20,015 nucleotides of DNA from positions 1 through 20,015 of the forward strand of contig JAJYGO010000364.1 of assembly GCA_021785115.1 (NCBI GenBank), written 5' to 3'. The notes below the pieces were generated by a model, which was given only the letters and a program-made list of their open reading frames with translations, was not told the origin of the DNA and ran no database searches. Position numbers and translations under genes: made by a program. Positions within the stretch are counted from its first letter, which is position 1. Each line of letters opens with the position of its first letter. The stretch is from Chloroflexota bacterium (GTDB lineage: Bacteria; Chloroflexota; Limnocylindria; Limnocylindrales; CSP1-4). Positions 3,528 to 18,444 of the stretch are shown piece after piece.

Positions 3528-3534
3528 CATCCGG
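3520..3534 (+). terminator. Small hairpin over the penicillin acylase stop codon
   Basis: CCGGAT and ATCCGG form a 6-bp stem with an AGC loop spanning the TAG stop. There is no T-tract. It may be a weak terminator or processing signal, or chance in GC-rich DNA. Confidence 0.25.
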
Positions 3535-3588
3535 ATTCGACCGATCCGCGCCCGCCCGCCCGGGATCCTCGACTTCCGGCTGCGCTGC

Positions 3589-3594
3589 TAGCAT
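3589..3594 (+). promoter_or_regulatory. Candidate -10 element of crgA, suggesting a leaderless transcript
   Basis: TAGCAT ends 10 nt before the crgA ATG at 3605, so transcription would be expected to start at or within a few bases of the start codon. No Shine-Dalgarno sequence precedes the ATG, which fits leaderless translation, common in Actinobacteria. A good -35 is not visible. Confidence 0.4.
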
Positions 3595-3604
3595 TCCACG
3601 CGTC

Positions 3605-3844
3605 ATGCCGAAGGCACGGTCGAAGCGGAGCCGCTACATTCCGCCCCCCAAGAAGAAGCCGAAGGCGAGCCCGCGATGGTTCGGGGCCGTCATCCTCACG
3701 GTCATGCTGCTCGGCGTGGCCGTGATCGTCCTGAACTACCTGGGGCTGATGCCTTTCACGGGCGGGCAGGCCAAGGGCTGGCTCGTGTTCGTCGGGCTCG
3801 GGCTGATCGGTGCCGGGTTCCTGCTCGCCACCCAGTGGCGCTGA
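3605..3844 (+). CDS. crgA: Cell division protein CrgA
   Basis: A small inner-membrane protein of the actinobacterial divisome. In mycobacteria CrgA binds FtsZ, FtsQ and penicillin-binding proteins and helps place peptidoglycan synthesis at the septum. The 79-residue product has the family layout: a basic, Lys/Pro-rich cytoplasmic N-terminus (MPKARSKRSRYIPPPKKKPK), then SPRW leading into transmembrane helix 1 (about 24-46), a short Gly-rich external loop, transmembrane helix 2 (about 55-76) and a C-terminal TQWR. The length is close to the family norm. The frame is open upstream without a start signal; ATG 3605 begins the conserved basic region and follows a -10-like TAGCAT. It lies 77 nt after the penicillin acylase gene and just before an FmdB-type gene. 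The only weak point is the lack of a clear -35. Confidence 0.9.
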   Translation: MPKARSKRSRYIPPPKKKPKASPRWFGAVILTVMLLGVAVIVLNYLGLMPFTGGQAKGWLVFVGLGLIGAGFLLATQWR

Positions 3845-3867
3845 GGGACGCGGCCGGGAGGGCGCCC

Positions 3868-4119
3868 GTGCCCGTCTACGAGTACCGCTGTACGGCGTGC
3901 GGGGCGCCGTCCGAGGAGCTGCGCCCCATGGCCCAGTCGAACGCCGACCCCGGGCCATGCCCGGCCTGCGGGGGACGGCGGCGCCGGGCGTTCGGCCGCG
4001 TCGGCGTTCGTTTCGAGGGATGGGGCTTCAGCCGGACCGACGCGCTCGTGTCGGAGGATCGCCCCCGAAAGGACTTCAAGGCGCTCCGCGAGCGCGCCGA
4101 ACAGCTCAGGGACGGCTGA
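3868..4119 (+). CDS. FmdB family zinc-ribbon protein
   Basis: An 83-residue protein beginning MPVYEYRCTACG, the hallmark of the FmdB/CxxC_CXXC_SSSS regulatory family. Cys8, Cys11, Cys31 and Cys34 form two CxxC knuckles expected to bind one zinc ion. The remainder is a basic, probably helical C-terminal tail. The family is usually described as putative regulatory and its molecular role is unsettled, so no function beyond zinc binding is claimed. The GTG start at 3868 has GGGAGG about 6 nt upstream and begins the conserved domain exactly. It follows crgA by 23 nt and could be cotranscribed with it. Its 3' end overlaps the convergent dehydrogenase gene by 14 nt. Confidence 0.85.
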   Translation: MPVYEYRCTACGAPSEELRPMAQSNADPGPCPACGGRRRRAFGRVGVRFEGWGFSRTDALVSEDRPRKDFKALRERAEQLRDG

Positions 4120-7036: not shown

Positions 7037-7043
7037 CTCGCTC

Positions 7044-8441
7044 CTACGCCCCCTGGGAGGGCTTGACCACGGCCGGCGACCCCGTGAGCCCTGCCCTCCG
7101 GGCGACCAGGTAGTAGAGCCCGCCGGACACGAACAGGCCGATGATCCACGAGATGTCCGCACCGTCGAAGTGCTTGGCGAGCGGCCCCACGTACAGGCTC
7201 GAGTTCACGAACGGGATCTGGATCAGGATCGTCAGCACGTAGATGCCGACGGCCCACCAGTTCACCGCCCCGTAGATCCCGTTCGGCTTGAAGATCTCCT
7301 CGATGCGGTAGCGGCCGCGCCGCACCAGGTAGAAGTCGGTGAGGTTGATGGCCGTCCAGGGCACCAGGAAGTACAGCAGGAACAGCACGAAGTTCGAGAG
7401 GTCCGTCAGGAAGTGGGCGCTCGCGAGCACCGCCAGGAGCGTTCCGATCACCGCGGTCACCGACGTGAGGGCGATGCGCAGCGTGATCCCCGGAGCGAAC
7501 CGGCCCGTCGGCGAGATCGCCGTGGTCGAGCTCATGAACGCGCCGTAGAGATTCTCGATGTTGGCCGCGAAGATGCCGAGGATGAACGTGATGAGGAACA
7601 GCCACTTGATCGACGGGAACAGCCCGCCGAGGTAGTCGGCCGTGTTGGCCGAGGCCGCCGCGGCCGCGACGGTGCCGACGACCGCGCCGATGATCATCAT
7701 CCATGACGCGCCGACCGCGGACCCGACGTAGGTGTACCAGAAGGTCGCCGCCGAGGACGTGTGCTCGGGCAGGTAGCGCGAGTAGTCCGACACGTACGGC
7801 GCCCACGTGATCTGCCACGAGGCGAAGATCGAGATCACCAGCAGGATGTTGGCGAACGTGTCGCCGGTGGCGTGATAGGCGGCGTGCGACCCGAGCACCT
7901 TCGCCGTGATCGCGATGAACGCGAGCACGAACAGGTACGAGGCCCAGCGGTCGTACCGGTGGATGAGGTCGTAGCCGACCCAGGTCATCAGCAGGGTCAC
8001 GGCGTTGACCAGCACGATGCCCCAGTCGGTCGACACGTGCAGGAGGCTGGATGCCGCCTCGCCCCCGAGCACCGCGCTGCTGACGAAGAAGCCGATGTAC
8101 ATGATGACCACGATCACGAGCGGCAGCTCGGCCCCGAACATCCCGAACTGCGCCCGGCTCTGGATCATCTGCGGGACCCCGAGTCGCGGTCCCTGCACCG
8201 AGTGGTAGGCCATGAACAGGCCCCCGACCAGGTTCCCGATCAGGATCGAGAGGACCGCCCAGGACAGGCTGAGCCCGAACACCGCCGTGGCGAGCAGGCC
8301 CGTCGCCACGGTCGTGATCTGGGCGTTGCTCGCGAACCAGATCGTGAGGAGGGTGTCGGGCCTCCCGTGCCGCTCGCTCAGCGGAATGAACTCGATGGCC
8401 CGGCGCTCGACCAGGCCTCCCCCTTGCTTCTGCGCTGCCAT
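7044..8441 (-). CDS. NCS1 family permease (purine-cytosine permease type)
   Basis: A 465-residue, about 12-helix cytoplasmic-membrane transporter of the nucleobase:cation symporter-1 family. These proteins import nucleobases, hydantoins, allantoin, thiamine or related ring compounds with H+ or Na+. Seen directly: a short polar N-terminus, the family pattern WFASNAQITT in helix 1, GPRLGVPQMIQSRAQFG between helices 2 and 3, and alternating hydrophobic segments through to the C-terminus. ATG 8441 is preferred over the ATG 22 codons upstream because GGAGG sits 9 nt before it and the 22-residue extension is low-complexity. The stop TAG is shared with the Shine-Dalgarno sequence of the dehydrogenase gene, 7 nt before its start. 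It follows the aminotransferase by 94 nt. The substrate is unknown, but the family preference for planar heterocycles is the main clue to what the operon handles. Confidence 0.9.
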   Translation of the reverse strand: MAAQKQGGGLVERRAIEFIPLSERHGRPDTLLTIWFASNAQITTVATGLLATAVFGLSLSWAVLSILIGNLVGGLFMAYHSVQGPRLGVPQMIQSRAQFGMFGAELPLVIVVIMYIGFFVSSAVLGGEAASSLLHVSTDWGIVLVNAVTLLMTWVGYDLIHRYDRWASYLFVLAFIAITAKVLGSHAAYHATGDTFANILLVISIFASWQITWAPYVSDYSRYLPEHTSSAATFWYTYVGSAVGASWMMIIGAVVGTVAAAAASANTADYLGGLFPSIKWLFLITFILGIFAANIENLYGAFMSSTTAISPTGRFAPGITLRIALTSVTAVIGTLLAVLASAHFLTDLSNFVLFLLYFLVPWTAINLTDFYLVRRGRYRIEEIFKPNGIYGAVNWWAVGIYVLTILIQIPFVNSSLYVGPLAKHFDGADISWIIGLFVSGGLYYLVARRAGLTGSPAVVKPSQGA

Positions 8442-8480
8442 TCCTTCCCCCCTCCGTTCGCTGCCGACCCGACCCTGGTC

Positions 8481-8515
8481 GGTCCCCGTCGCGTCGACGG
8501 GCGTCACCGGGGACC
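8481..8515 (-). promoter_or_regulatory. Intercistronic hairpin between aminotransferase and permease
   Basis: GGTCCCC (8481-8487) and GGGGACC (8509-8515) are exact complements. An inner CCGTC/GACGG pair (8486-8490 and 8496-8500) offers an alternative or nested fold. On the minus-strand mRNA this sits between the aminotransferase stop and the permease ribosome binding site. It may set relative expression by attenuation, processing or 3'-end protection. There is no T-tract. Confidence 0.4.
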
Positions 8516-8531
8516 CCTTCCCTCCCCTCCC
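8514..8531 (-). other. Putative G-quadruplex in the mRNA strand just after the aminotransferase stop
   Basis: On the minus strand four G-runs (GGG, GGGG, GGG, GGGG) are separated by loops of 1, 1 and 2 A residues, a canonical short-loop quadruplex pattern. It begins 4 nt after the aminotransferase stop codon and overlaps the foot of the intercistronic hairpin. Confidence 0.5.
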
Positions 8532-8535
8532 TCCG

Positions 8536-9600
8536 TCATTCGGCGCCGGCCGCCCGTCCTCCGGGACCCATCAGCGCTCGTTCCAGCAGCGCGAACCCCT
8601 CCTCGCCCGGCACGGTGACCCGCACGGCCCCTGGGACGCCGAGCGCCGACCCCGGCCGCACGCTCACCCCGCCGGCCAGCAGTCGCTCGATCAGGCCGGC
8701 CTCGTCCTCGGCCAGCACCAGGACGAAGTTCGCCTGGGACGGGATGGTCCGGTAGCCGGCTCGCTCGAACAGCTCCCCAAGACGCCGCCGGCCGGCCCGG
8801 ACCCACGCCACCGTGCGGTCGAGGTGGGCTCGGTCCGCGAGCGCCGCGGTCGCGGCGACCTGCGCGAGCGCGTTGACCGAGAACGGCGCCCGGATCCGGC
8901 GAAGGTCCGTCACCACCTCGGGCGGTCCCACGAGGTACCCCACCCGCATCCCGGCGAGCCCATACGCCTTCGAGAAGGTCCGGAGCACGACCAGCCGTCC
9001 CTCGGCGGCCAGCCGCACGGCACTGGTCTCGGCCGGGTCGTCGGCGAACTCCACGTACGCCTCGTCGACCACCACGAGGCCGGCGCGGGCCGCCGGCAGC
9101 GCGGCCTCGATCGCCCGCGCCGGGACGGCCGTCCCCGCCGGGTTGTGCGGGTTCGCGACGAGGCAGAGGTCGACCGGGACGGCCGTCATCGCCGCCACGT
9201 CGTGAGCCCAGCCGGCCAGCGGAACTCGCCGCACCCCCGCGCCGAGGGACCGCGCCGTCGTCTCGTGGAGGCGATACGAGGGATCGGCCACGACGACCGA
9301 CCCACCCGCGGCCGCGTAGGCCATGACCAGCAGGAGGATCAGCTCGTCGGACCCGTTGCCGACGAGGATGCGGTCGGGCTCGACGTCGTGGAGCCCCGCG
9401 AGCCGCTCTCGCAGGACCGTCGCCAGCGGATCGGGGTACCGGTGGACCCTCGGGAGCGCCGCCCGGACGGCGGTCGCGACGACCGCGGGCGCGACGAGCC
9501 CGGGCTCGTTCGACGCCAGGCTTCCGGCGTCGCTCGGCGCTGGGCGACCGGGGACGTAGGGCTCCAGGGCCGCCACCCACGGACGCGGGGTGATCCTCAC
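8536..9600 (-). CDS. HisC-like class I/II PLP-dependent aminotransferase
   Basis: Transfers an amino group between an amino acid and a 2-oxo acid or a related phosphate ester. It most resembles histidinol-phosphate aminotransferase, but its operon is not a his operon. The 354-residue protein has the fold-type I landmarks: SLASNEP near 28-34, YPDP (55-58), GNGSDELI (81-88), the NPHNP signature at 150-154, DEAYVEF (179-185), the PLP-binding Lys211 in TFSKAYGLAGMRVGY, and a conserved Arg in VRPGS. GTG 9600 is chosen because it overlaps the regulator's TGA (GTGA) and has GGAGG 7 nt upstream; it also begins the conserved N-terminus. Tight coupling to an IclR regulator and neighbours for transport and 2-hydroxyacid oxidation suggest a catabolic or salvage role on a His- or aromatic-like 2-oxo acid. 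That role is inferred. Confidence 0.88.
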   Translation of the reverse strand: MRITPRPWVAALEPYVPGRPAPSDAGSLASNEPGLVAPAVVATAVRAALPRVHRYPDPLATVLRERLAGLHDVEPDRILVGNGSDELILLLVMAYAAAGGSVVVADPSYRLHETTARSLGAGVRRVPLAGWAHDVAAMTAVPVDLCLVANPHNPAGTAVPARAIEAALPAARAGLVVVDEAYVEFADDPAETSAVRLAAEGRLVVLRTFSKAYGLAGMRVGYLVGPPEVVTDLRRIRAPFSVNALAQVAATAALADRAHLDRTVAWVRAGRRRLGELFERAGYRTIPSQANFVLVLAEDEAGLIERLLAGGVSVRPGSALGVPGAVRVTVPGEEGFALLERALMGPGGRAAGAE

Positions 9601-10355
9601 CCGGCGGCCTCCGCGCTCGTTGCCCCGAGACGCTCCGACACGCGGGCCGCGGCAGCCCTGACCGCCGGCGCAACCTTTCCGGCGGGCAGCCCTCCATGAC
9701 GCAGGTAGCTCACGCCGATGGCGCCACAGCAAGAGCCGGCGGCATCGAAGACCGGCGCCGCCACGCATCGGATGCTCGCGGCGGTCTCGCCCTCGTCGAC
9801 CGCGTACCCACGCTTGCGGACCGTCGCGAGCACCACCTGGAGGTCCCGCCGCGCCATCGGCCCACCGAGGGCGCCCAGCAGGGACAGGTCCTGCGCGTCC
9901 ACGGCAGACGGGGCCGCATGGGCGAGGCACGCGCGGCCGATCGCCGTCAGATGGGCCGGAAGGCGGGCGCCGACGGCGCTCGCCAGCAGGACGGCCTCAC
10001 CCGGCGGGTCCTCCTTGGCGAGGTAGACCGCGTGCGGCCCGTCCACGATCGCAAAGTGCGCCGTCGCCCCGACCTGCTGGGCGAGGCCGGGGAGCTCGGG
10101 AGCCGCCGCTCGCAGGGGCGTGACCCCCCGCAGGTAGGCGGCTCCGACCTCGAAGGCCGCGAGCCCCAGACGGTAGGCGCCGTGATCAACCTCGAGGAAG
10201 CGCGCGGACGCGAGCGCCCGGAGCACGGCATGGAGGCTGCTCTTCGGGGCCCCGAGGTCGCGGGCGAGCTGTGCGAGCGTGGCGCTGCGTCCCTCGTCGC
10301 GGGCGAGCAGCCCCAGAACTCCCAGCGCCCTGGCCACCGAGGTGCTCACAGTCAC
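9597..10355 (-). CDS. IclR family transcriptional regulator
   Basis: A 252-residue DNA-binding regulator. The N-terminal winged helix-turn-helix (about residues 5-60, SVARALGVLGLLARDEG then LAQLARDLGAPKSSLHAVLRAL) precedes the IclR effector-binding domain (about 75-245). The latter contains the family pattern GYAVDEGETAASIRCVAAPVFD followed by GAIGVS. IclR proteins bind a small carboxylic or aromatic effector and repress or activate an adjacent catabolic operon. The start is GTG 10355; GTG 10349 is a close alternative and neither has a Shine-Dalgarno sequence, matching a short or absent leader from the promoter at 10368-10396. The stop overlaps the aminotransferase GTG, so regulator and enzyme are translated together. 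The 39-bp palindrome over the promoter implies autoregulation of the whole operon. Confidence 0.92.
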   Translation of the reverse strand: MTVSTSVARALGVLGLLARDEGRSATLAQLARDLGAPKSSLHAVLRALASARFLEVDHGAYRLGLAAFEVGAAYLRGVTPLRAAAPELPGLAQQVGATAHFAIVDGPHAVYLAKEDPPGEAVLLASAVGARLPAHLTAIGRACLAHAAPSAVDAQDLSLLGALGGPMARRDLQVVLATVRKRGYAVDEGETAASIRCVAAPVFDAAGSCCGAIGVSYLRHGGLPAGKVAPAVRAAAARVSERLGATSAEAAG

Positions 10356-10360
10356 GTCCA

Positions 10361-10399
10361 GTGTTCGGATATACGAATGCCATTCGGAATCGCGAACAC
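10361..10399. promoter_or_regulatory. 39-bp nested palindromic operator, likely the IclR binding site
   Basis: The outer arms GTGTTCG (10361-10367) and CGAACAC (10393-10399) pair exactly. So do the inner arms CGAATG/CATTCG (10374-10379 and 10381-10386), centred on the same base, 10380. In all 14 of 19 arm positions match. The same stretch can be read as two tandem TTCG-N6-CGAA dyads starting at 10364 and 10383, 19 bp apart. It overlaps the predicted promoter of the IclR operon. Confidence 0.7.
10368..10396 (-). promoter_or_regulatory. Predicted promoter of the IclR operon
   Basis: On the minus strand TATATC (-10, at 10368-10373) lies 17 nt downstream of TTCGCG (-35, at 10391-10396). The -35 is poor and the -10 fair, as expected for a regulated promoter. 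Both boxes are inside the palindromic operator. Transcription should start a few bases before GTG 10355, giving little or no leader. Confidence 0.45.
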
Positions 10400-10460
10400 G
10401 CGCATCCTAGGCCGGCGTGCGGCCCCGGTCAACGACGCTGCGGGACGGCGCGGGACGGGC

Positions 10461-10473
10461 CGGCTCCGAGCCG
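10461..10473. repeat. Short perfect dyad in the IclR-hydrolase intergenic region
   Basis: CGGCTC and GAGCCG flank a single C. It lies 48 nt before the GTG of the hydrolase gene and could be a second regulatory site or the foot of a hairpin. No more can be said. Confidence 0.3.
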
Positions 10474-10520
10474 GTCAGGCCGGGCTTCCCCGGCCGAGCG
10501 GTGCGGGGTACCGTAGCGTC

Positions 10521-11516
10521 GTGTCCGCCCCACGACATCCCCTGCTCTAGCGCGTCGCCCGGCGCACCCTGAGCTGGACGTTCTTCAGCTGGTACTGGGG
10601 CGATGCCATCGCGGTCGACGGGCTGCTCGAGGCCTCACGGGCCGGGATCCCCGAGGCTCGCGCCCATGTCCTGACGTCGCTGGACCGCTGGGCGCGGATG
10701 GGCCCGGACAGCTTCGACGACGCGCTCGCCCCGGGGCGTGCGATCGTCGAGCTCGTCGCGGAGGGCGACCTCGCGCCGGCCGCGGCCGAGCGCTTCCTGG
10801 CGAGCATCGACCGGCTGCCCACCTTCGACGGCTCCATCCCCCTGCTCGAGCCGCACCGGCCGGCCTTCCGGTTCGGCGTGTGCATCGACGCCGTCTACCA
10901 TCTGCCGCCTGCGCTGGCCGCGGCGGGCGCCTGGGGGGGCGACCGCGAGCGAGTCGCGCAGGCGGTCGCCATCGCCGAGCGCGCCGTCGATCTGCTCGCC
11001 TGCCCCGCCGGCTGGTCCCAGTGGTACGACGCCGCCCTCCGCCGCAACAACGGCATCCCCTGGAGCCGGGGCATCGGGTGGGCGCTCCTCGGACTGCTCG
11101 ACCTGCTCGACCTGCTCGCCGCCGCAGGCTCCGTCCAGGGCGTGGGCCGCATCCAGGACATGGCCGGCGCCATGCTCGAGCGGCTCGGGGCCAGCCAGGG
11201 AGCCGATGGCCGCTGGCGCTCGGTGCTGGACGACGACGAGGCTGCCTGCGAGACCTCCACGTCGGCTTTCTTCGTCGCGGCCGTCCACCATCCCGCCGCA
11301 GCGACTCTGTACGAGCCGCCCACCGCGGTGCTCGAGTCCGCCGTCGCCGCCCTGACCTCCTCGATCGACGCCGACGGCATCTGCCAGGGCGTGAGCGCCG
11401 ACATCCTCCCCGGCTGGGACGTTCGCCCCTACCGAGCCTTCGGCGTCGAGCCCTCCCCCTGGGGCCAGGGCGCGGCGCTCCGCGCGCTGACGGCCCTGCG
11501 GGGTGCCGCCCCGTGA
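10521..11516 (+). pseudogene. GH88/GH105-like unsaturated-glycuronyl or glycoside hydrolase, interrupted by in-frame TAG at codon 10
   Basis: Family members are cytoplasmic (alpha/alpha)6-barrel enzymes that hydrolyse unsaturated uronic acids from pectin- or glycosaminoglycan-derived oligosaccharides. Read from GTG 10521, the frame gives nine residues ending PLL, then TAG (10548-10550). It continues without break through RVARRTLSW, a Trp-rich stretch with YWGDAIAVDGLLEA, FGVCIDAVYH (candidate catalytic Asp123) and the family-like WSRGIGWALLGLLDLL. The total of 331 codons is about the family length. No ATG, GTG or TTG lies in frame between the TAG and 10698, and starting at 10698 would remove the conserved N-terminal helix. 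TAG is one base from GAG, which would give Leu-Glu-Arg. It is therefore a nonsense mutation, a sequencing error, a non-canonical start or readthrough. A TACCGT -10-like box would place transcription at the GTG. It is divergent from the IclR gene. Confidence 0.6.
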
Positions 11517-11531
11517 CCGAGGGCGGGACGC

Positions 11532-11555
11532 GCCGCCCGACGGTTGCAGGGCGGC
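11532..11555. terminator. Stem-loop between convergent hydrolase and thiolase genes
   Basis: GCCGCCC and GGGCGGC form a perfect 7-bp stem with a 10-nt loop, 15 nt past the hydrolase stop and 32 nt past the thiolase stop on the other strand. There is no T-tract. The position between convergent genes suggests a shared terminator. Confidence 0.4.
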
Positions 11556-11587
11556 ACGCGCCGGCGACCGTTCAGCGCTAGCCCGCG

Positions 11588-12802
11588 CTAGCCCAGGCGC
11601 TCGATGATCGTCGCGTTGGCCATGCCGCCGCCCTCGCACATGACCTGCAGGCCGTAGCGCCCGCCGGTGCGCTCGAGGCCGTGCACCAGCGTGGTCATGA
11701 GCTTCGCGCCGGTCGCGCCAAGCGGGTGGCCGAGGGCGATCGCCCCGCCGTTCGGGTTCACGCGCTCCTCGAACCACGCGTCGTCGATGCCGAGCTCCTT
11801 CTTCCAGGCCAGCACGACCGACGCGAAGGCCTCGTTGATCTCCACGGCGTCGAGGTCGGCGAGCGACAGGCCGGCTCGCTCCAGGGCCTTGCGCGTCGCG
11901 GGGATCGGGCCCGTCAGCATCATGACCGGCGAGTCGCCGACGACGGCGAACGAGACCAGGCGCGCCCGCGGGGTGAGCCCGAGCTCCTCGGCCGTCTCGC
12001 GGCTCGCGATCAGCAGCGCCGCAGCGCCGTCGGAGATCTGCGAGGAGTTCCCGGCCGTCACCGTCCATCCGGTGAGCTCGCCGGAGAACATCTCCTCGAA
12101 CTGCGGCGACTGGAACGCCGGCGCGAGCGTCCCCAGCTTCTCGCGGTCGGGCTCCATGCGGACGCCCTCGTCGTGGTCGAACAGGATCTCGGTGCCGTCG
12201 ACCGTCACCTTCATCGGCACCACCTCGCGCTCGAATCGACCCTCGCGGATGGCCCCGGCGGCTCGCAGGTGCGAGCGGTGGGCGAAGTCGTCGGACTGCT
12301 CGCGCGTGATGCCCCACTTCGAGGCGATGAGCTCGGCCGAGATCCCCTGCGGCACGAGCTTGCCGTCGTAGCGCGCGGGGAGCCTGGTCCCGAACGGGCT
12401 CTGGCCCATGGTCGAGGAGAACATCGGCACGCGCGTCATCGACTCGACCCCGGCGGCGACCACCAGATCGTAGGCGCCGGCCATCACGCCCTGCGCGGCG
12501 AAGTGCGCGGCCTGCTGGGACGACCCGCACTGCCGGTCGATGGTGGTCGCTGGCGTGGTCTCGGGGAAGCCCGCCGCAAGCCACGCGTTGCGCCCGATGT
12601 TGAACGTCTGCTCGCCGGCCTGCGAGACGCAGCCGGTGATGCTGTCCTCGATGCGCTCGGGGTCGACGCCGGTCCGGGCGACCAGCTCGCGCAGCACGTC
12701 GGCCAGCAGGTCGACGGGGTGAACGTCCTTCAGGCTGCCGCCGCGCTTGCCGACGGGGCTGCGGACGGCCCCGACGATCACGGCCTCGCGGACCTCGGGC
12801 AT
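11588..12802 (-). CDS. Thiolase family acetyl-CoA acyltransferase
   Basis: Condenses two acetyl-CoA or cleaves 3-ketoacyl-CoA with CoA, in fatty-acid or related degradation in the cytoplasm. The 404-residue protein has every thiolase landmark: the acylated nucleophile Cys92 in DRQCGSSQQAAHFA, the NEAFA motif at 323-327, His359 in NPNGGAIALGHPLGATG, and the second catalytic Cys389 in VMCEGGGMANATIIERLG at the C-terminus. ATG 12802 has AAAGGAG 5 nt upstream, a strong start. It is transcribed alone from a TTGACG-17-TAGGCT promoter with a dyad just downstream. Such dyads upstream of thiolases are often bound by TetR-type lipid regulators; this is inferred. The partial acyl-CoA synthetase 11 kb away could serve the same pathway. 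Confidence 0.93.
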   Translation of the reverse strand: MPEVREAVIVGAVRSPVGKRGGSLKDVHPVDLLADVLRELVARTGVDPERIEDSITGCVSQAGEQTFNIGRNAWLAAGFPETTPATTIDRQCGSSQQAAHFAAQGVMAGAYDLVVAAGVESMTRVPMFSSTMGQSPFGTRLPARYDGKLVPQGISAELIASKWGITREQSDDFAHRSHLRAAGAIREGRFEREVVPMKVTVDGTEILFDHDEGVRMEPDREKLGTLAPAFQSPQFEEMFSGELTGWTVTAGNSSQISDGAAALLIASRETAEELGLTPRARLVSFAVVGDSPVMMLTGPIPATRKALERAGLSLADLDAVEINEAFASVVLAWKKELGIDDAWFEERVNPNGGAIALGHPLGATGAKLMTTLVHGLERTGGRYGLQVMCEGGGMANATIIERLG

Positions 12803-12824
12803 CGTGGCTCCTTTCGCGGATGTC

Positions 12825-12844
12825 GTTACCTACTGTCCGGTAAC
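12825..12844. promoter_or_regulatory. Dyad operator in the thiolase 5' region
   Basis: GTTACC (12825-12830) and GGTAAC (12839-12844) are perfect inverted repeats with 8 nt between them. The dyad sits between the predicted transcription start (about 12851) and the Shine-Dalgarno sequence at 12808-12814. A bound repressor would block transcription. The size resembles TetR-family operators, but no regulator gene for it is in the window. Confidence 0.5.
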
Positions 12845-12857
12845 CTACGATCGCCCG

Positions 12858-12886
12858 AGCCTATGCCCGACCGCGCCGACCGTCAA
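12858..12886 (-). promoter_or_regulatory. Thiolase promoter, with its -35 box inside the left direct repeat
   Basis: On the minus strand TTGACG (12881-12886) is followed after exactly 17 nt by TAGGCT (12858-12863), good matches to vegetative-sigma consensus. The transcription start would be near 12851, about 50 nt before the ATG. The -35 box lies within the 17-bp repeat that flanks the inserted island, so its upstream context was changed by the insertion while the box was retained. Confidence 0.6.
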
Positions 12887-12896
12887 CACGAGTATG
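12880..12896. repeat. Left 17-bp direct repeat flanking the island
   Basis: CCGTCAACACGAGTATG occurs here and, identically and in the same orientation, at 17904-17920. The first C is matched at both ends but overlaps the right-hand terminal inverted repeat, so the true duplication may be 16 bp (12881-12896). The two copies bracket the only low-GC, defence-like stretch in the window, as expected for a target-site duplication or att core. Confidence 0.85.
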
Positions 12897-12909
12897 GGCT
12901 AGGTGGCGG
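12897..12909. repeat. Left terminal inverted repeat of the island
   Basis: GGCTAGGTGGCGG abuts the left direct repeat. Its inverted partner at 17892-17904 reads, on the minus strand, GGTTAGGTGGCGG: 12 of 13 identical, and also exactly abutting a direct repeat. That arrangement (duplication, then inverted terminus) is characteristic of transposition-like insertion. About 220 nt of DNA from here to the first gene holds no other feature I can support. Confidence 0.7.
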
Positions 12910-13133
12910 GGAGTCTCGGATCGGCGCGAAACGTATCGGAGCTCCGCTGGCATGACGACGATTCTTGGCTCGAGCGGCTCCTCTCGGCGGAAAGGTGTGC
13001 CGACACGGCGCGATGTTGGCGCCCTCATGTCACAGGTCACCGGTACGCTTCCCTTGCCGGGCGGCTCCGGTAACCGTCGCCGCACCGATTCCACCCCGTC
13101 TTGCCGTTCGGGAGGAGGAGGCATGGGGGGCCC

Positions 13134-13367
13134 ATGGATAGTGCAGAGCAACTCTTCGAGGCTCCCGGCGGGACGCTGACGACTGCCACCACCCTGAGGC
13201 CCATCTCCTTCTGCGTCGAGTGCGGCGCGCCCCGATTCGAGGACTCGGACCTCTGTCGGCCGTTCGACGAGCCCGTCCACGACTGCAACACGGACCGGTG
13301 GCTCTGGACGGAGTCGCGGCTCGGGTGGGAGACTCCCGGCGCTGACCAACGGAGGCGAGCGCAGTGA
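13134..13367 (+). CDS. Small Cys-rich, possibly zinc-binding hypothetical protein
   Basis: A 77-residue protein with a CVECG knuckle in its first half, followed by LCRPFDEPVHDC, giving four Cys and a His that could form a zinc site. It is acidic and Trp-rich near the C-terminus (DRWLWTESRLGWE). No family is recognised. ATG 13134 is chosen as the first ATG in frame; a purine-rich GGAGGAGGAG run ends 13 nt upstream, rather far for a Shine-Dalgarno sequence, and TTG 13101 in the same frame is an alternative. Its TGA overlaps the GTG of the next gene, so the two are translationally coupled and probably act together. It is the first gene of the inserted island on the plus strand. Confidence 0.55.
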   Translation: MDSAEQLFEAPGGTLTTATTLRPISFCVECGAPRFEDSDLCRPFDEPVHDCNTDRWLWTESRLGWETPGADQRRRAQ

Positions 13368-13969
13368 CGAGCGATGGGTTCGATCGGGCTGCCTCGGCCG
13401 TGGACGAGATTCTGCAGTCCGACCACGCCGAGGAGCGCGTCCGCAGATACTTCGATCCACGGTCCGGGTACGCGGCGGAGACCTTCAACACCCTTTCGCC
13501 GAACGAGCCGGATCGAGTCACCTCAGCGGACCTCCTTGCTGTCAGCCTGCTCAGCGTGCCCGTCGACGCCCGGATCGTTCGGTGGTTCGAGGAGGGCGAG
13601 AACGCGGCAGAGATCTCTCGCCTCCTCGCCGAGATCCCAGAGGTCGATATCTGGGAGGCCGGCCCGGAGGTGCTTGCCCCGGACGCGCCTGCGTGGAGGC
13701 TGTGGGACCTCGTGCGCGGGGCACGGATCGGGATGGGCCCGACCCGCACCAGCAAACTCATGGCGCGCAAGCGCCCTCGCCTCATTCCCATCGTCGATGA
13801 CATGGTGAGGGACGTCATCAAGGTGAGCGAGGAGTGGGGTTTCTTTCGCTGGTACCTGCAGGACTCGGGGCGAGTGAGCCAGATCCGCCGGCTGCTTCCT
13901 CCTGAGCTTGCCGACAAGATCAGCGTGCTGCGGACCCTGGACGTCGCGATCTGGATGGGGGCGGTCTAG
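13364..13969 (+). CDS. DUF6308-like protein with a helix-hairpin-helix-like motif
   Basis: A 201-residue soluble, mostly helical protein. The central GMGPTRTSKLMARKRPRLIP resembles the helix-hairpin-helix DNA-binding turn of DNA glycosylase-like folds, and the ending VLRTLDVAIWMG matches what I recall of DUF6308 proteins of Actinobacteria. Function is unknown for that family. The resemblance to glycosylases is a pattern-level observation; no catalytic residue can be assigned. GTG 13364 has GGAGG 8 nt upstream and overlaps the TGA of the preceding Cys-rich gene. It is convergent with the two-TM protein gene, 31 nt away. Residence in an island with a restriction-modification pair suggests a DNA-related or defence role. 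That is inference from neighbours only. Confidence 0.75.
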   Translation: MTSDGFDRAASAVDEILQSDHAEERVRRYFDPRSGYAAETFNTLSPNEPDRVTSADLLAVSLLSVPVDARIVRWFEEGENAAEISRLLAEIPEVDIWEAGPEVLAPDAPAWRLWDLVRGARIGMGPTRTSKLMARKRPRLIPIVDDMVRDVIKVSEEWGFFRWYLQDSGRVSQIRRLLPPELADKISVLRTLDVAIWMGAV

Positions 13970-14000
13970 GTCCAGGCCAGCCGAAGCGTCGGGCCCCTTC

Positions 14001-15173
14001 TCATGGGTCATCGCGGAGATCCAACACGAGTACTCCCGACCAGAACGTCATCGTCAGGACCTTCGCCACGAGGGCTTCGGGCAGAGCCCGGATCGCGATG
14101 TGGGCAGCCAGAGTTCGGCCCAGGAGCAGTCCCTTGTCAATCTCCGCAGGAGTGATGTCCGCGACCACACGGGCTTCGGTCCCGCCCGCGAGCGGAAAGC
14201 GAAAGGCGGGCGCTTGGGGAATGACCGCGCCGGGTGGATGGACAGGTGGGATCCGCTGGCACACCTCCAGCGGATGCTTGTCGCCGCTTGGTATCCGGAA
14301 CCGCTCCTTGTCCCAGTTCGCCCAGCGAACATGCCACGGGGGTCCGGTCGAATGAGCCTGCTGGCCTTCGAGCGCCACGATCTTGGCCTCGAAGGCACGC
14401 TCGGGTCCGTCATTCACAACCATGATGCGCACGAGCCCACTGACCGACTCCATCGGCGGCAGGAGGACCACGTAGGCGTCAAACATCGGGTCGGACTCGG
14501 GATCGAAGAGCTGCACGCGTGGCTCGAGGCTGCTCGAGAAGCCGACGCGCACGTGCCGGGTGATGGCGGCCTCCGGCACGACGGATGAGACCCGGACGCT
14601 CGCGGTGACCGTTCGCTGTTCGAGATCTTCCCTGTCACGAAGCCCCGAGGGCAGGACGACGCGTTCGCCCATCGGGGTCAGGAAGGTCATCGGCGGGTTC
14701 CGGTAGTGACCATGCACGTAGTCGATGCCCGCCTGCCTGTCGAGCTCGACGAGCTCGAGGAAGCCGCTGCTTCCTTGGAGCAGGGGGCGCCGCGCGACGG
14801 TCCCTGCCTCCCTCCACTTGATGTTCCAGGGAAGGGGGGGCGCCCTGTCGACGCCGGTGAGCGAGGTGACCTCCGCCTCGAACTCGGCCTGGCCTCCTTG
14901 ATTGGTGACCTTCAGAAGGACCTGACGGCCACCGTCCACGAGTGGCTCGACATCGAACGTCGGCTTCCCAGAGGCTATAGTTCCCGGCCCCGGCGTGCGT
15001 TCTCCGCGCGTTCGACGCTCGCGCGTCACAGCGACAACGAACCAGATGGCCCCCCCTGCCAACCCTGTTGACGACCCAAGGATCACGCCGAGGCTGTGGT
15101 GGTAGTGGACGCCGCCAAGAAGCGCGAAGAAGGCAGCGATGACGAGCGTTCCAGCCCACTCCCTCGAGCGCAT
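14001..15173 (-). CDS. Membrane-anchored hypothetical protein with a duplicated beta-rich domain
   Basis: A 390-residue protein with two adjacent hydrophobic segments near the N-terminus (about 6-25 and 30-50), then a large soluble part. The soluble part contains two related modules. The first has VLLKVTNQGGQAEFEAEV then PPLPWNIKWRE; the second has RIMVVNDGPERAFEAKI then GPPWHVRWANW. Each looks like a beta-sandwich (Ig/CARDB-like) and ends with a conserved Pro-Trp-x-(I/V)-(K/R)-W signature, so an internal duplication is visible by eye. No named family is recognised. ATG 15173 is chosen because the hydrophobic region begins there; no Shine-Dalgarno sequence precedes it and the 126 codons upstream look non-coding. 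The short N-terminal hairpin would place the modules on one membrane face, perhaps as a sensor or effector scaffold. Confidence 0.7.
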   Translation of the reverse strand: MRSREWAGTLVIAAFFALLGGVHYHHSLGVILGSSTGLAGGAIWFVVAVTRERRTRGERTPGPGTIASGKPTFDVEPLVDGGRQVLLKVTNQGGQAEFEAEVTSLTGVDRAPPLPWNIKWREAGTVARRPLLQGSSGFLELVELDRQAGIDYVHGHYRNPPMTFLTPMGERVVLPSGLRDREDLEQRTVTASVRVSSVVPEAAITRHVRVGFSSSLEPRVQLFDPESDPMFDAYVVLLPPMESVSGLVRIMVVNDGPERAFEAKIVALEGQQAHSTGPPWHVRWANWDKERFRIPSGDKHPLEVCQRIPPVHPPGAVIPQAPAFRFPLAGGTEARVVADITPAEIDKGLLLGRTLAAHIAIRALPEALVAKVLTMTFWSGVLVLDLRDDP

Positions 15174-15276
15174 GGGCGAATCATCGCACCAACGTCCCAC
15201 AGCCCGCGGTGGCGCCTCGGGGTCGACCCGAGTCTGCTCCGAACTCCCCGGAGTACCTATCCGCTGGAAGGAGTTG

Positions 15277-15669
15277 ATGGCACGACGAATCGGCCTGTTG
15301 CTCCGACGAGCGACCTTCGGGTCTGATCGGGCGACAGAGATCCTTCCTCCACGAGAACCCATAGCCGAAACAGCTGGGCGGTGTCGACCACCAACCCCGC
15401 CGAGTGATCCGCGAACTCGCGAAGCTTTCCCTCCGAATCGTACGCTCGCCGCTCTCGTCCGCCAGCTCGAGGAGCTGGTCGAGGCGATGGTGGCAGCTCT
15501 CCTGTTTGCCGCTCCCGAGTCCGGAGCAAAGCTGTCAGTCCTGCTCCGCAACTACCGGAGGGCCCTCATTCGGGACGCGCTGCTGAACGTGAGGCAGGGT
15601 GACAACGTGGTGGAGTTGGGGCGGGCAAGACCGGGGCCGCGCTCCAGGCGCCTATCCGACCAGACCTGA
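15277..15669 (+). CDS. Hypothetical helical protein
   Basis: An open frame of 130 codons. ATG 15277 follows AAGGAG with 3 nt between. The N-terminal part is Arg-rich and low-complexity; from about residue 65 on it becomes a plausible helical domain (LAALVRQLEELVEAMVAALLF, written here over 20 residues only in part: LAALVRQLEELVEAMVAALL) followed by a basic tail. No family is recognised. On the opposite strand an overlapping frame (15257-15529) also has protein-like content near its end, so coding strand is uncertain. It is convergent with the endonuclease gene 21 nt away and divergent from the two-TM protein gene. Confidence 0.4.
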   Translation: MARRIGLLLRRATFGSDRATEILPPREPIAETAGRCRPPTPPSDPRTREAFPPNRTLAALVRQLEELVEAMVAALLFAAPESGAKLSVLLRNYRRALIRDALLNVRQGDNVVELGRARPGPRSRRLSDQT

Positions 15670-15690
15670 CAGCCTGGATCGAGTTGGCAG

Positions 15691-16449
15691 CTAGCTCTGT
15701 GTGAACCGCCGCCCGTACTCAGAGCAGAGCTTCTGGATGAACGCGTCGTAGTGGAGCGGGTCGCCGATCTGCGGAGCAGGCGCCGAGGTGACGTACTTCG
15801 TCGAGGGGTTGGCGATGTTGTCGTGCGAGACGACGACTGCGCAGCCCGCGTCGATTCCACGTCCTTCGGTTCCTCCGCGGCTCGTCACCGCCCGCATCTC
15901 GCTCATGCAGTGTGCCACCAAGTCGGTGGGGTTCTTGTGGATGGTCATGTGCGAGACAAGCGGTGACTGGAAGCGCGGCGCGGCGTTGATGACCATGACC
16001 ACGCCCGCGATGGCAGCGTTGCTGTAGTTGTGGACGTGCTGGTGGTGGGCTTCGAAGTCGCGCTTGCGATTCTTCACCGCCTTGTGATGCTCGGTCATCA
16101 CGCCCTTGATCTCAATCGCAATCTGGATCGTCGAAGGGGGAGCGCACGCGATGCCAGCTTGCGGTACATCGGCCACCGTCTCAGCTGGCGGGCCCATGGC
16201 CAGGTCCGTGTTCCAGGTCACCGTCCCGACCTGCAGCTTCACGTTGATCGCGTACACCAGCCGCCCTGCTTCAGCCTTCGCACGCATCGGTTCGCAGGTG
16301 CGGAGCAGGTCCGCAACGATCGCCAGGGCCAGCGCGTTCGAGTGCTTATCCGACCGCGGGTGGTAGCCCTGGCTCCTCAGGTGCTCGAGAAAGGAAGCAG
16401 GGAGGGCCATGTCGACAGTCTGCCCGGCCGGGACACCGCGGGCAAGCAT
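15691..16449 (-). CDS. Predicted Type II-like restriction endonuclease, PD-(D/E)XK superfamily
   Basis: Predicted to cut DNA at a site protected by the adjacent methyltransferase. From ATG 16449 it is 252 residues. The candidate active site is Asp82 in VTWNTDLAMG, then Glu113 and Lys115 in IQIAIEIKG, spaced as in the PD-(D/E)XK nuclease core. This is followed by a basic helix rich in His and Lys (HHKAVKNRKRDFEAHHQHV) and a hydrophobic strand (AIAGVVMVINAAP). ATG 16410 is an alternative start; the frame upstream to 16578 runs into the divergent methyltransferase gene and is unlikely. No convincing Shine-Dalgarno sequence is seen. The two genes are head-to-head with 77 nt between starts, which allows coordinated control. 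Recognition sequence cannot be deduced. The nuclease call rests on motif pattern plus neighbour. Confidence 0.75.
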   Translation of the reverse strand: MLARGVPAGQTVDMALPASFLEHLRSQGYHPRSDKHSNALALAIVADLLRTCEPMRAKAEAGRLVYAINVKLQVGTVTWNTDLAMGPPAETVADVPQAGIACAPPSTIQIAIEIKGVMTEHHKAVKNRKRDFEAHHQHVHNYSNAAIAGVVMVINAAPRFQSPLVSHMTIHKNPTDLVAHCMSEMRAVTSRGGTEGRGIDAGCAVVVSHDNIANPSTKYVTSAPAPQIGDPLHYDAFIQKLCSEYGRRFTQS

Positions 16450-16475
16450 CTGCACGGCGTGTCGCCGGTGACTGC

Positions 16476-16503
16476 TTGTAGTGTCGTTGCCTCCCGATAG
16501 ACT
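16476..16503 (+). promoter_or_regulatory. Predicted methyltransferase promoter
   Basis: TTGTAG (16476-16481) and TAGACT (16498-16503) are separated by 16 nt. Transcription would begin near 16510, just before the purine-rich ribosome binding region and GTG 16527. The 77-nt gap between the two divergent genes must also hold the endonuclease promoter, so the two may overlap; none is clear on the minus strand. Confidence 0.45.
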
Positions 16504-16526
16504 CCGGCGGGAGAGGGAGAGGATCA

Positions 16527-17402
16527 GTGCCACCGCAGCCGGCGAAGAACCCTCGCGAGCAGTTGAGGGAAGGGCCAACGACCCACCAGGTCATCTTGGG
16601 CGACGCCAGACAGATGCCTGAGATCCCGGATGAGTCCGTGCACCTCGTCGTCACTTCACCACCGTACGCCAACCTCAAGGAGTACGAGCCGGGCAATCCG
16701 AGCCAGCTCGGTGACATTGACGACTACGACAAGTTCCTCGACGAGCTGGACAAGGTGTGGCAGGAGTGCGCCCGCATCCTGGTCCCCGGAGGCCGGATCT
16801 GCTGCGTCGTCGGAGATGTCAACGTGGCGAGGTCGAATGGGGGCCGCCATTACGTCCTTCCCCTGGCAGCCGACATCCGGGTCCGCGCTCGGCGACTGGG
16901 GCTGGATCACCTGCAGGGCATCATGTGGTACAAGGTCGCGAACATCAGGCTTGAGGCTTCGAGGTCGACTCGCTACCTGGGAAAGCCCAACCTCCCGGGT
17001 GGCATCATCAAGAACGACACCGAGCACATCCTCTTCCTGCGAAAGCCGGGTTACCGATCCCCATCCGGCGCGATGGAGGCGGCAAGCTTCATCCCAACCG
17101 AGGACTACATCCGGTGGTTCAGGTCCATATGGGATGACATCCCGGGCGCGTCGCTGAAGGACCATCCGGCTCCGTTCCCGCTTGAGGTCCCGAGCCGTCT
17201 GATCCGCATGTTCAGTTTCACCGGCGACACCGTGCTGGATCCCTTCCTCGGAACGGGCACGACGACGCTCGCCGCCATGAGGTGGGGCCGCTCGTCAATT
17301 GGCTACGAGGTCGAGCCGCACTACCTGTCGCTCGTGAGGCACCGTCTGGCGCAGCCGAGCCTCCTGCACGACGCCGCTCTAACCTTCGAAGAGCGCCCGT
17401 AG
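16527..17402 (+). CDS. DNA methyltransferase, beta class (TSPPY), of a restriction-modification system
   Basis: Methylates an exocyclic amino group (N4 of cytosine or N6 of adenine) in DNA using S-adenosylmethionine. The 291-residue protein has motif IV first, VVTSPPYANLKEY (TSPPY at 43-47), and the SAM-binding motif I near the C-terminus, VLDPFLGTGTTTLAAMRWG (from about 236) followed by IGYEVEPHY. That order defines the beta class; TSPPY is most often seen in m4C enzymes and some m6A ones. Between them lies the target-recognition stretch, including GIMWYKVANIRLEA. Length is typical of a solitary or Type II methylase. GTG 16527 follows GAGAGGGAGAGGA with 3 nt spacing. It is head-to-head with the predicted endonuclease and is followed by two hairpins. 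Being alone, with no S subunit, it fits Type II. Confidence 0.92.
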   Translation: MPPQPAKNPREQLREGPTTHQVILGDARQMPEIPDESVHLVVTSPPYANLKEYEPGNPSQLGDIDDYDKFLDELDKVWQECARILVPGGRICCVVGDVNVARSNGGRHYVLPLAADIRVRARRLGLDHLQGIMWYKVANIRLEASRSTRYLGKPNLPGGIIKNDTEHILFLRKPGYRSPSGAMEAASFIPTEDYIRWFRSIWDDIPGASLKDHPAPFPLEVPSRLIRMFSFTGDTVLDPFLGTGTTTLAAMRWGRSSIGYEVEPHYLSLVRHRLAQPSLLHDAALTFEERP

Positions 17403-17408
17403 CTCCGG

Positions 17409-17456
17409 GAGCCCGTCGGCGGGCTCACGCCAGGAGAGAACCGGGAGGTTTCTCCC
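17409..17456 (+). terminator. Two tandem hairpins after the methyltransferase gene
   Basis: GAGCCCG and CGGGCTC (17409-17426) form a 7-bp stem with a TCGG loop, 6 nt after the stop codon. A second structure pairs GGAGAGAACC (17433-17442) with GGTTTCTCC (17447-17455) around a GGGA loop with one bulged base; a smaller GGGAG/CTCCC stem (17443-17456) competes with it. There is no long T-run. Together they look like a terminator or mRNA-stabilising pair. Confidence 0.5.
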
Positions 17457-17467
17457 CTGCGGCAGTT

Positions 17468-17704
17468 CTGCTCAACACCTCCCAGGCTGAGCGGGCGCGT
17501 GAGGCCCTCCGCAGGCAGGATCCGTGGCGAGAAGTCCCCGAGTATGATCGGGCCGCGATCGCTCTAGCTCTGTACCTGCGGGAATGCGAGCGGACGCCAC
17601 CGAGGCGCCAGCAGTGCGGTGGTGCCCTCGCCGGCCGCCGACGGGATCAGCGGTACTGCGGGACGGCGTGCCGCAGACGCGCAGCGCGGCGCAGGGCCAG
17701 ATGA
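17468..17704 (+). CDS. Zinc-ribbon-like small protein without a standard start, possible remnant
   Basis: The open frame gives TSQAERAREALRRQDPW, a helical acidic/basic segment, then CGGALAGRRRDQRYCGTACR and an Arg-rich tail. The pattern Cys-Gly...Arg-Tyr-Cys-x-x-x-Cys-Arg-x-Arg-Ala resembles the small Cys-rich DNA-associated motif often seen at the end of actinobacterial phage and mobile-element proteins (RRYCSxxCRQRAYRRR-like). The frame has no ATG, GTG or TTG after the methyltransferase stop: CTG 17468 is given only as a nominal start. The first knuckle also lacks the usual second Cys. It may be a decayed gene, use an unusual start, or have lost its 5' end to the hairpin region. Confidence 0.4.
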   Translation: MLNTSQAERAREALRRQDPWREVPEYDRAAIALALYLRECERTPPRRQQCGGALAGRRRDQRYCGTACRRRAARRRAR

Positions 17705-17836
17705 CTTGTCGAAGGGTGCTTCCTCCGGAGCGACCCAACTTCGCCGGACCAGCCGAGACTACGCCCGCCCTGTCCGACGGCAGCAAGCAAGATGAGGGCA
17801 AGGTCATCGGCGCGACGCGTCTGATCGAGGTTGCAG

Positions 17837-17852
17837 CCCCCCCTCCGGGGGG
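17837..17852. repeat. Poly-C/poly-G hairpin near the right end of the island
   Basis: A run of seven C (17837-17843) is followed after TCC by six G (17847-17852) and can fold on itself. The stretch from 17705 to 17891 has no gene I can support; this structure is its only visible feature. Confidence 0.35.
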
Positions 17853-17891
17853 TCGGAGCTGGATGTCACGGATCCCGCCACTTCCGGGCCG

Positions 17892-17904
17892 CCGCCACCT
17901 AACC
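17892..17904. repeat. Right terminal inverted repeat of the island
   Basis: CCGCCACCTAACC is the inverted partner of 12897-12909 (12 of 13 bases) and directly abuts the right direct repeat. Just inside it, on the minus strand, a further AGTGGCGGGATCC-like copy of the TIR core appears at about 17872-17884, a possible subterminal binding repeat. Confidence 0.7.
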
Positions 17905-17920
17905 CGTCAACACGAGTATG
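17904..17920. repeat. Right 17-bp direct repeat flanking the island
   Basis: Identical to 12880-12896 in the same orientation. From here the sequence returns to the chromosomal context downstream of the response-regulator stop at 17986. Joining the flanks at one copy reconstructs a simple intergenic region between that gene and the thiolase promoter. Confidence 0.85.
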
Positions 17921-17985: not shown

Positions 17986-18444
17986 TCAGCTGAGGAGCTG
18001 CGCGTGGACCCTCGCGATGACCTCGCTGAGGGCGGGCAGGTCGGTCTTTGCGACGAAGTCGAGGGCTCCGGCGAGCTCGGCGTCGGCGCGGGCGAACTCG
18101 TCGTCGTACAGGGAGAGGATCACCACCTGGGTCTCGGGGAGGTCCTCCCGGATGACGCGGGTCGCGGCAAAGCCGCTCATGCCGCGCATGCGCGCGTCCA
18201 TGATCACGAGGTCGGGATGAAGCGCTCGTGCCCGCTCGATCGCCTCTGGCCCGTCGCCGGCCTCGCCGACCACCGTCGCGGGGGCCTCCATCTCGCGCAG
18301 GTAGTAGCCGACGCCCGCCCTGGTGGAGGCGTCGTCGTCAACGACGAGCACGCGAAGCGGACGCTCCAGCGCGCTCAGGCTCCCTCGGGGACGGATCTCG
18401 AGCAAACCCTGAGCCTCCTCGCCTTGTCCGCTCAGCATGGGCAT
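17986..18444 (-). CDS. Single-domain response regulator (receiver only)
   Basis: A 152-residue CheY-like phospho-acceptor. After a 30-residue N-terminal extension the receiver domain shows RVLVVDDD (acidic pocket Asp36-Asp38), the phosphorylatable Asp83 in LVIMDARM, Ser111 in VVILSLYDDE and the conserved Lys133 in FVAKTD. The chain ends after the last receiver helix, with no output domain. The receiver looks most like those of NarL-type regulators, whose HTH would normally follow. ATG 18444 has GGAG 6 nt upstream; ATG 18474 is an alternative. No histidine kinase is in the window. It lies 143 nt downstream of the NlpC/P60 gene on the same strand, with a hairpin between. The island's direct repeat is 65 nt beyond the stop, so the insertion itself did not truncate it. 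Confidence 0.88.
   Translation of the reverse strand: MPMLSGQGEEAQGLLEIRPRGSLSALERPLRVLVVDDDASTRAGVGYYLREMEAPATVVGEAGDGPEAIERARALHPDLVIMDARMRGMSGFAATRVIREDLPETQVVILSLYDDEFARADAELAGALDFVAKTDLPALSEVIARVHAQLLS

Follow-up and report, generated by a model that had tools for sequence, protein, structure and literature searches.

A probable restriction-modification cassette between terminal repeats with the features of a non-autonomous transposon-like unit

Introduction

Mobile insertion cassettes such as MIC231 carry passenger genes between transposon ends and have no transposase. Here we describe an insert of ~5.0 kb that carries a probable type II restriction-modification (R-M) system and a few other genes between terminal repeats. 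It lies in contig JAJYGO010000364.1 (assembly GCA_021785115.1, deposited as a Chloroflexota bacterium), whose 20,015 nucleotides were analyzed as a whole and are referred to as the window. Our preferred reading, to which we assign a probability of roughly 0.64, is that of a non-autonomous transposon-like cassette, inserted by an enzyme that acted in trans or has since been lost.

Several described systems are close to this arrangement; their properties, and the comparisons built on them below, are taken from excerpts of the cited sources. Among R-M units, some resemble DNA transposons in having imperfect inverted repeats and insert with a short target duplication (Furuta, Abe and Kobayashi 2010, as reported in PMC3874152), and in others the duplication made on insertion is variable and on the order of 100 bp long (PMC3874152). 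The long-duplication group of IS1202-group insertion sequences generates target duplications of 16-28 bp, and the IS1202 family has 5'-TGT ends, with inverted repeats of 24-26 bp in the ISAjo2 type (PMC10132070). Casposons show a median duplication of 15 bp and inverted repeats of 25-602 bp that often overlap the duplication, and include one island in Streptomyces albulus (PMC4046053). Two insertion sequences of the IS1634 family produce duplications of 8-514 bp (PMC2266710).

Results

Terminal repeats delimit the insert

The insert is enclosed by a perfect direct repeat, CCGTCAACACGAGTATG, identical at 17 of 17 bp and enclosing 5.0 kb, just as an earlier note on this DNA had claimed. Directly inside its two copies lies an inverted repeat, GGGCTAGGTGGCGG against CCGCCACCTAACCC, with 13 of 14 positions matching; the 13-bp termini (12/13) described earlier are thereby borne out and extended to 14 bp.

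12880-12896: left direct repeat (putative target duplication), which includes the -35-like TTGACGG of the minus-strand thiolase promoter; probably the original target copy
17904-17920: right direct repeat (putative target duplication)
12896-12909, plus strand: left terminal inverted repeat, GGGCTAGGTGGCGG, with a one-base overlap with the left direct repeat
17892-17905, minus strand: right terminal inverted repeat, GGGTTAGGTGGCGG on this strand (CCGCCACCTAACCC on the other), 13/14 to the left one

Since the inverted arms overlap the direct repeat, a symmetric element would, by inspection, imply a duplication of 14 bp (GGG ends) or 16 bp (GG ends).

To judge how unusual this arrangement is, direct-repeat pairs (≥12 bp, with copies separated by 500-10,000 bp) were scored for an abutting inverted match out of 14. 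The window holds 47 such pairs; the 12880/17904 pair is the longest, and no other exceeds 10/14 in the abutting inverted match. An abutting match of at least 13/14 arose in none of 60 windows simulated with an order-3 Markov model (mean 56.8 pairs per window). A 17-bp repeat by itself is unremarkable, at 0.13 per simulated window; its combination with inverted arms is what is remarkable. An ancestral segment with repeats arisen by chance could draw on that frequency of lone repeats, but the joint direct and inverted arrangement, absent from all simulations, argues against it, as do the composition of the insert and its lack of matches in class relatives (see below), and we consider this explanation very improbable.

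Applied to 88 real loci (1,199,976 bases), the scan gave three matches of at least 12/14 outside runs of N (L024, L045 and L054); further rows in L038 and L042 were discounted because they arise from such runs. The L024 match (11464-14227) is a genuine IS1595-family transposon (PF12762, E value 1.4e-36) with matching ends of ~25 bp, passenger genes between them and a duplication of 8 bp, and its recovery serves as a positive control for the scan. The match in L045 is due to palindromic repeats, two palindromes that enclose one gene, and for that in L054 (12/14) no explanation was found. As a separate observation, the gene in L045 (12546-13603), set between two near-identical long palindromes, encodes an AbiEi-type domain (E 5.3e-9) and also matches REase_MTES_1575 below threshold.

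The insert is foreign to its surroundings in composition

By composition, the insert is foreign to the surrounding DNA. Its GC content is 0.660 vs 0.734 in the left and 0.736 in the right flank (5-kb samples of the left flank range from 0.726 to 0.748), and GC at third codon positions (GC3) is 0.79-0.84 in five insert genes vs 0.86-0.97 in six flanking genes. This comparison of GC and codon bias upholds the earlier view that the insert differs from its flanks.

Among the genomes searched, those nearest by the neighboring thiolase (70-75% identity) are actinobacterial and assembled from metagenomes. We compared the window with 27 genomes from the class of the nearest thiolase relative, which are probably incomplete assemblies, so that absence from them is not proof. 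Insert DNA had no match in these 27 genomes beyond scraps of 32-37 bp in 6 of them. The candidate nuclease described below had no relative in any of the 27 (E ≤ 1e-10), an empty answer that is weak without a known positive. In plasmid and phage collections, insert DNA was without a match outside the methyltransferase gene, and the methyltransferase relatives there are below 60% identity. A search of the window for Rfam families found none.

The cargo resembles a type II R-M system

Five genes were assigned to the insert:

13134-13367, plus strand: small CxxC (zinc-ribbon-like) protein, 77 amino acids (aa), probably in one operon with the DUF6308 gene; no family match
13364-13969, plus strand: DUF6308 protein, 201 aa (PF19827, E 1.4e-40)
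14001-15173, minus strand: putative membrane-anchored protein, 390 aa, with a sub-threshold match to DUF1918 and nothing else
15691-16449, minus strand: candidate nuclease, 252 aa, with D..ExK residues; possible restriction enzyme of the pair
16527-17402, plus strand: type II-like N4/N6 DNA methyltransferase, 291 aa (PF01555, E 7.7e-35; PADLOC MTase_II, E 6.9e-62)

Judged by its sequence, this cargo likely includes a type II R-M system, a label that falls short of proof. The candidate nuclease, encoded next to the methyltransferase, has no match in Pfam, NCBIfam, PADLOC or the PDB. It has 616 relatives, of which 120 are listed, and its own cluster is recorded on 4 contigs. We aligned 50 of the listed relatives (the window's own sequence included) with those from two loci, and D82, E113 and K115 are invariant across these 52 sequences, a pattern that we take to be that of a PD-(D/E)XK site. 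Relatives of the nuclease occur in 6 of 396 phylum genomes and relatives of the methyltransferase (E ≤ 1e-60) in 5 of the 396, two of the latter at 76-77% identity. In both of these genomes, a nuclease relative (36% and 33% identity), the methyltransferase and an XhoI-type nuclease (PF04555) stand in one row, and an XhoI-type nuclease accompanies the R-M relatives in loci L094 and L095. Given this neighbor of the methyltransferase in relatives, the 252-aa protein of the window may be either the restriction enzyme or an accessory nuclease.

Two further observations concern these genes. To the right of the methyltransferase, an open reading frame (ORF) of 140 aa (17282-17704) has a C-terminal Cys pattern, weak codon bias (GC3 0.62) and no family match. 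On a Paraburkholderia plasmid (L285, 5863-7593), a methyltransferase (58% identity) is followed by a 238-aa protein of weak similarity to the candidate nuclease (21% identity, E 3e-4), adjoining a site-specific integrase.

Further copies and related modules

The exact end GGGYTAGGTGGCGG occurs at 9 places in 8 of the 396 phylum genomes. G006 and G148, whose methyltransferase relatives are the closest, have one place each. A partner end combined with a flanking duplication was found at none of the nine, and we took them as chance; two of the surrounding contigs stop close to the match, and one locus (L118) has a 10-bp flank repeat and no partner end there. A reversed control pattern of GGGYTAGGTGGCGG is present in many more of the listed genomes. 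Among viral contigs, 48 stretches matched the nuclease pattern and 11 the methyltransferase pattern, none of them a relative, and the repeat or end patterns matched 18, 58 and 71 stretches. A pair test covering the window together with 284 loci evaluated 1308 candidate pairs and returned the window's own pair with 17 bp and no second element; in the 13 other pairs listed, flanking repeats were exact over no more than 9 bp or matched at 10/11 and 11/12.

We also scanned the flanks of R-M relatives (L094-L100), leaving out L101, where the match is at the contig end. In L097, a locus that holds 151 repeat pairs, one 14-bp repeat is accompanied by an inverted match of 13/14 that begins 7 bases inward; we took it as chance. 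Direct repeats without inverted arms surround the nuclease relative in L095 (43 bp), L097 (25 bp) and L099 (19 bp). The first of these belongs to an island of ~11.6 kb (1720-13376) that extends from a tRNA-Val to a 43-bp repeat of the tRNA end and contains a tyrosine integrase, the nuclease relative, the methyltransferase, the XhoI-type nuclease and a gene for an IrrE-like peptidase. The location of this R-M relative in a tRNA integrase island suggests that related modules travel in different vehicles.

Insertion site and proposed mode of insertion

Two genes flank the insert:

11588-12802, minus strand: thiolase, left flanking gene outside the insert, with the insertion site in its promoter region
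17986-18444, minus strand: response regulator (PF00072), right flanking gene outside the insert; start picked by inspection

Read in the direction of the thiolase gene, the left direct repeat ends in the -35-like TTGACGG. When the thiolase upstream region is aligned with that of L001, the elements TTGACG, GGCATA and the dyad GTTACC..GTAGGT.AC are retained and similarity ends within the repeat (the alignment with L002 is identical). The alignment score with L001 is 12.5, compared with a mean of -3.0 (standard deviation 4.2, maximum 10.0) in 300 shuffles against L001; L004, L005 and L003 scored 10.5, -3.0 and -5.0, respectively. Since the promoter elements are kept in L001 and similarity ends within the left repeat, we regard the left copy as probably native, the promoter having been retained by duplication. 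On the right, the response regulator has matches in 15 of the 27 class genomes (E ≤ 1e-20), at identities of only 40-49%. Between the thiolase gene and the insert, we also noted an operator-like dyad, GTTACC-N..-GTAGGTAAC (12825-12844), which is mostly retained in L001 and resembles a TetR-type operator.

A scan of the insert genes and ten further alternative-frame ORFs revealed no transposase, integrase or cas1 domain; the earlier claim that none is encoded agrees with this result for the ORFs scanned. We propose that the ends GG(G)YTAGGTGGCGG would have been recognized by a transposase or another integrase of the strand-transfer type, provided in trans or lost since then, and that this enzyme would have joined them to target cuts staggered by 14 or 16 bp at the upstream edge of the thiolase promoter. 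Gap repair would then have produced the direct repeats, with the left copy preserving the -35-like region.

Alternatively, the insert might be an integrative element of a serine or tyrosine site-specific recombinase, lost or acting in trans, with the direct repeat as att core and the inverted repeats as attP arms. Symmetric arms around a core fit large serine integrases. In a joining test, the element-side junction was symmetric at 15 of 21 positions (4 of 1000 controls), which speaks for this alternative but in part repeats what the inverted repeat already shows; at half-sites of 14 bases, it was symmetric at 8 of 14 (558 of 1000 controls). The integrase island of L095 points in the same direction. 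The joined bacterial (empty) site, however, has no dyad: it is symmetric at 9 of 21 positions, which 978 of 1000 controls reach, and this is mild evidence against such a recombinase. The target is located in a promoter region, no tRNA was found in the window, and the ORFs scanned hold no recombinase domain. We therefore regard site-specific integration as possible but unlikely. Specific element ends together with an unremarkable target mildly favor transposition.

An R-M unit might also have inserted itself with a target duplication and no transposase, in the manner suggested for certain R-M systems whose duplications are long and variable, and insertions of that kind are described (PMC3874152, PMC3031569). 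Those duplications are, however, variable and of ~100 bp (PMC3874152), and the one seen here is short; together with the matched inverted-repeat ends, this shortness indicates an end-recognizing enzyme, which makes self-insertion improbable.

Discussion

Transposition into the thiolase promoter region gives, in our view, the best reading of the repeats and the composition, and we infer that the cassette may still be mobile and its R-M genes active. The earlier suggestion of a non-autonomous element moved in trans is thus retained. That no mobilizing enzyme was found counts against it, and several other points weigh in this direction. The ends are short (14 bp), and 11 bp of the direct repeat recur within the insert as CAACACGAGTA at 14022-14032 (a length of 11 was reached in 2 of 400 simulations), which transposition does not account for. 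No empty site was seen, and no fetched relative has the right flank in common with the window. The seven R-M relative loci scanned are without these ends. Finally, neither the 396 genomes nor the viral-contig matches and fetched loci yielded a further element with these ends; those with the same termini and varied cargo envisaged by the earlier note thus did not turn up there.

What the window offers is a well-delimited example of an R-M cassette that appears to travel as a non-autonomous transposon, with a bearing on how defense genes spread without a visible recombinase. Its end sequences and the 14- or 16-bp duplication offer a search key by which the mobilizing enzyme might be found. Speculatively, and with considerable doubt, the ends might belong to an undescribed family of transposases or Cas1-like integrases that cuts 14 or 16 bp apart and mobilizes recombinase-less defense cassettes in trans in uncultured Actinomycetota.

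Compared with known mobile units, the insert is like MIC231-type cassettes in having passenger genes without a transposase, and unlike them in that no parent insertion sequence with its ends was identified. It shares a long duplication (14 or 16 bp, according to the placement of the ends) with the long-duplication group of IS1202, but its ends are GGG/GG instead of TGT..ACA and 13-14 bp long, and no transposase was found (PMC10132070). It resembles casposons in duplication length and in inverted repeats that overlap the duplication; unlike casposons as described in the excerpt, it has no cas1 or polB in the ORFs scanned, and its inverted repeats measure 14 bp vs 25-602 bp (PMC4046053). As the ends are not of the TGT type and no Cas1 was found, we assign it neither to the IS1202 family nor to the casposons. 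An unrecognized insertion mechanism, the other suggestion of the earlier note, is not needed: long target duplications are on record for the IS1202 group and casposons, as are R-M units with inverted repeats. It is these R-M units that the insert resembles, with R-M genes (methyltransferase and candidate nuclease) between imperfect inverted repeats and no recombinase in the ORFs scanned. As in the units of PMC3874152, a short putative target duplication accompanies R-M genes that are apparently mobile without a linked known mobile element; unlike them, the insert has additional genes, and the likeness is one of description that says nothing on common descent. R-M cassettes of this transposon-like kind are already on record, and the window probably adds another example.

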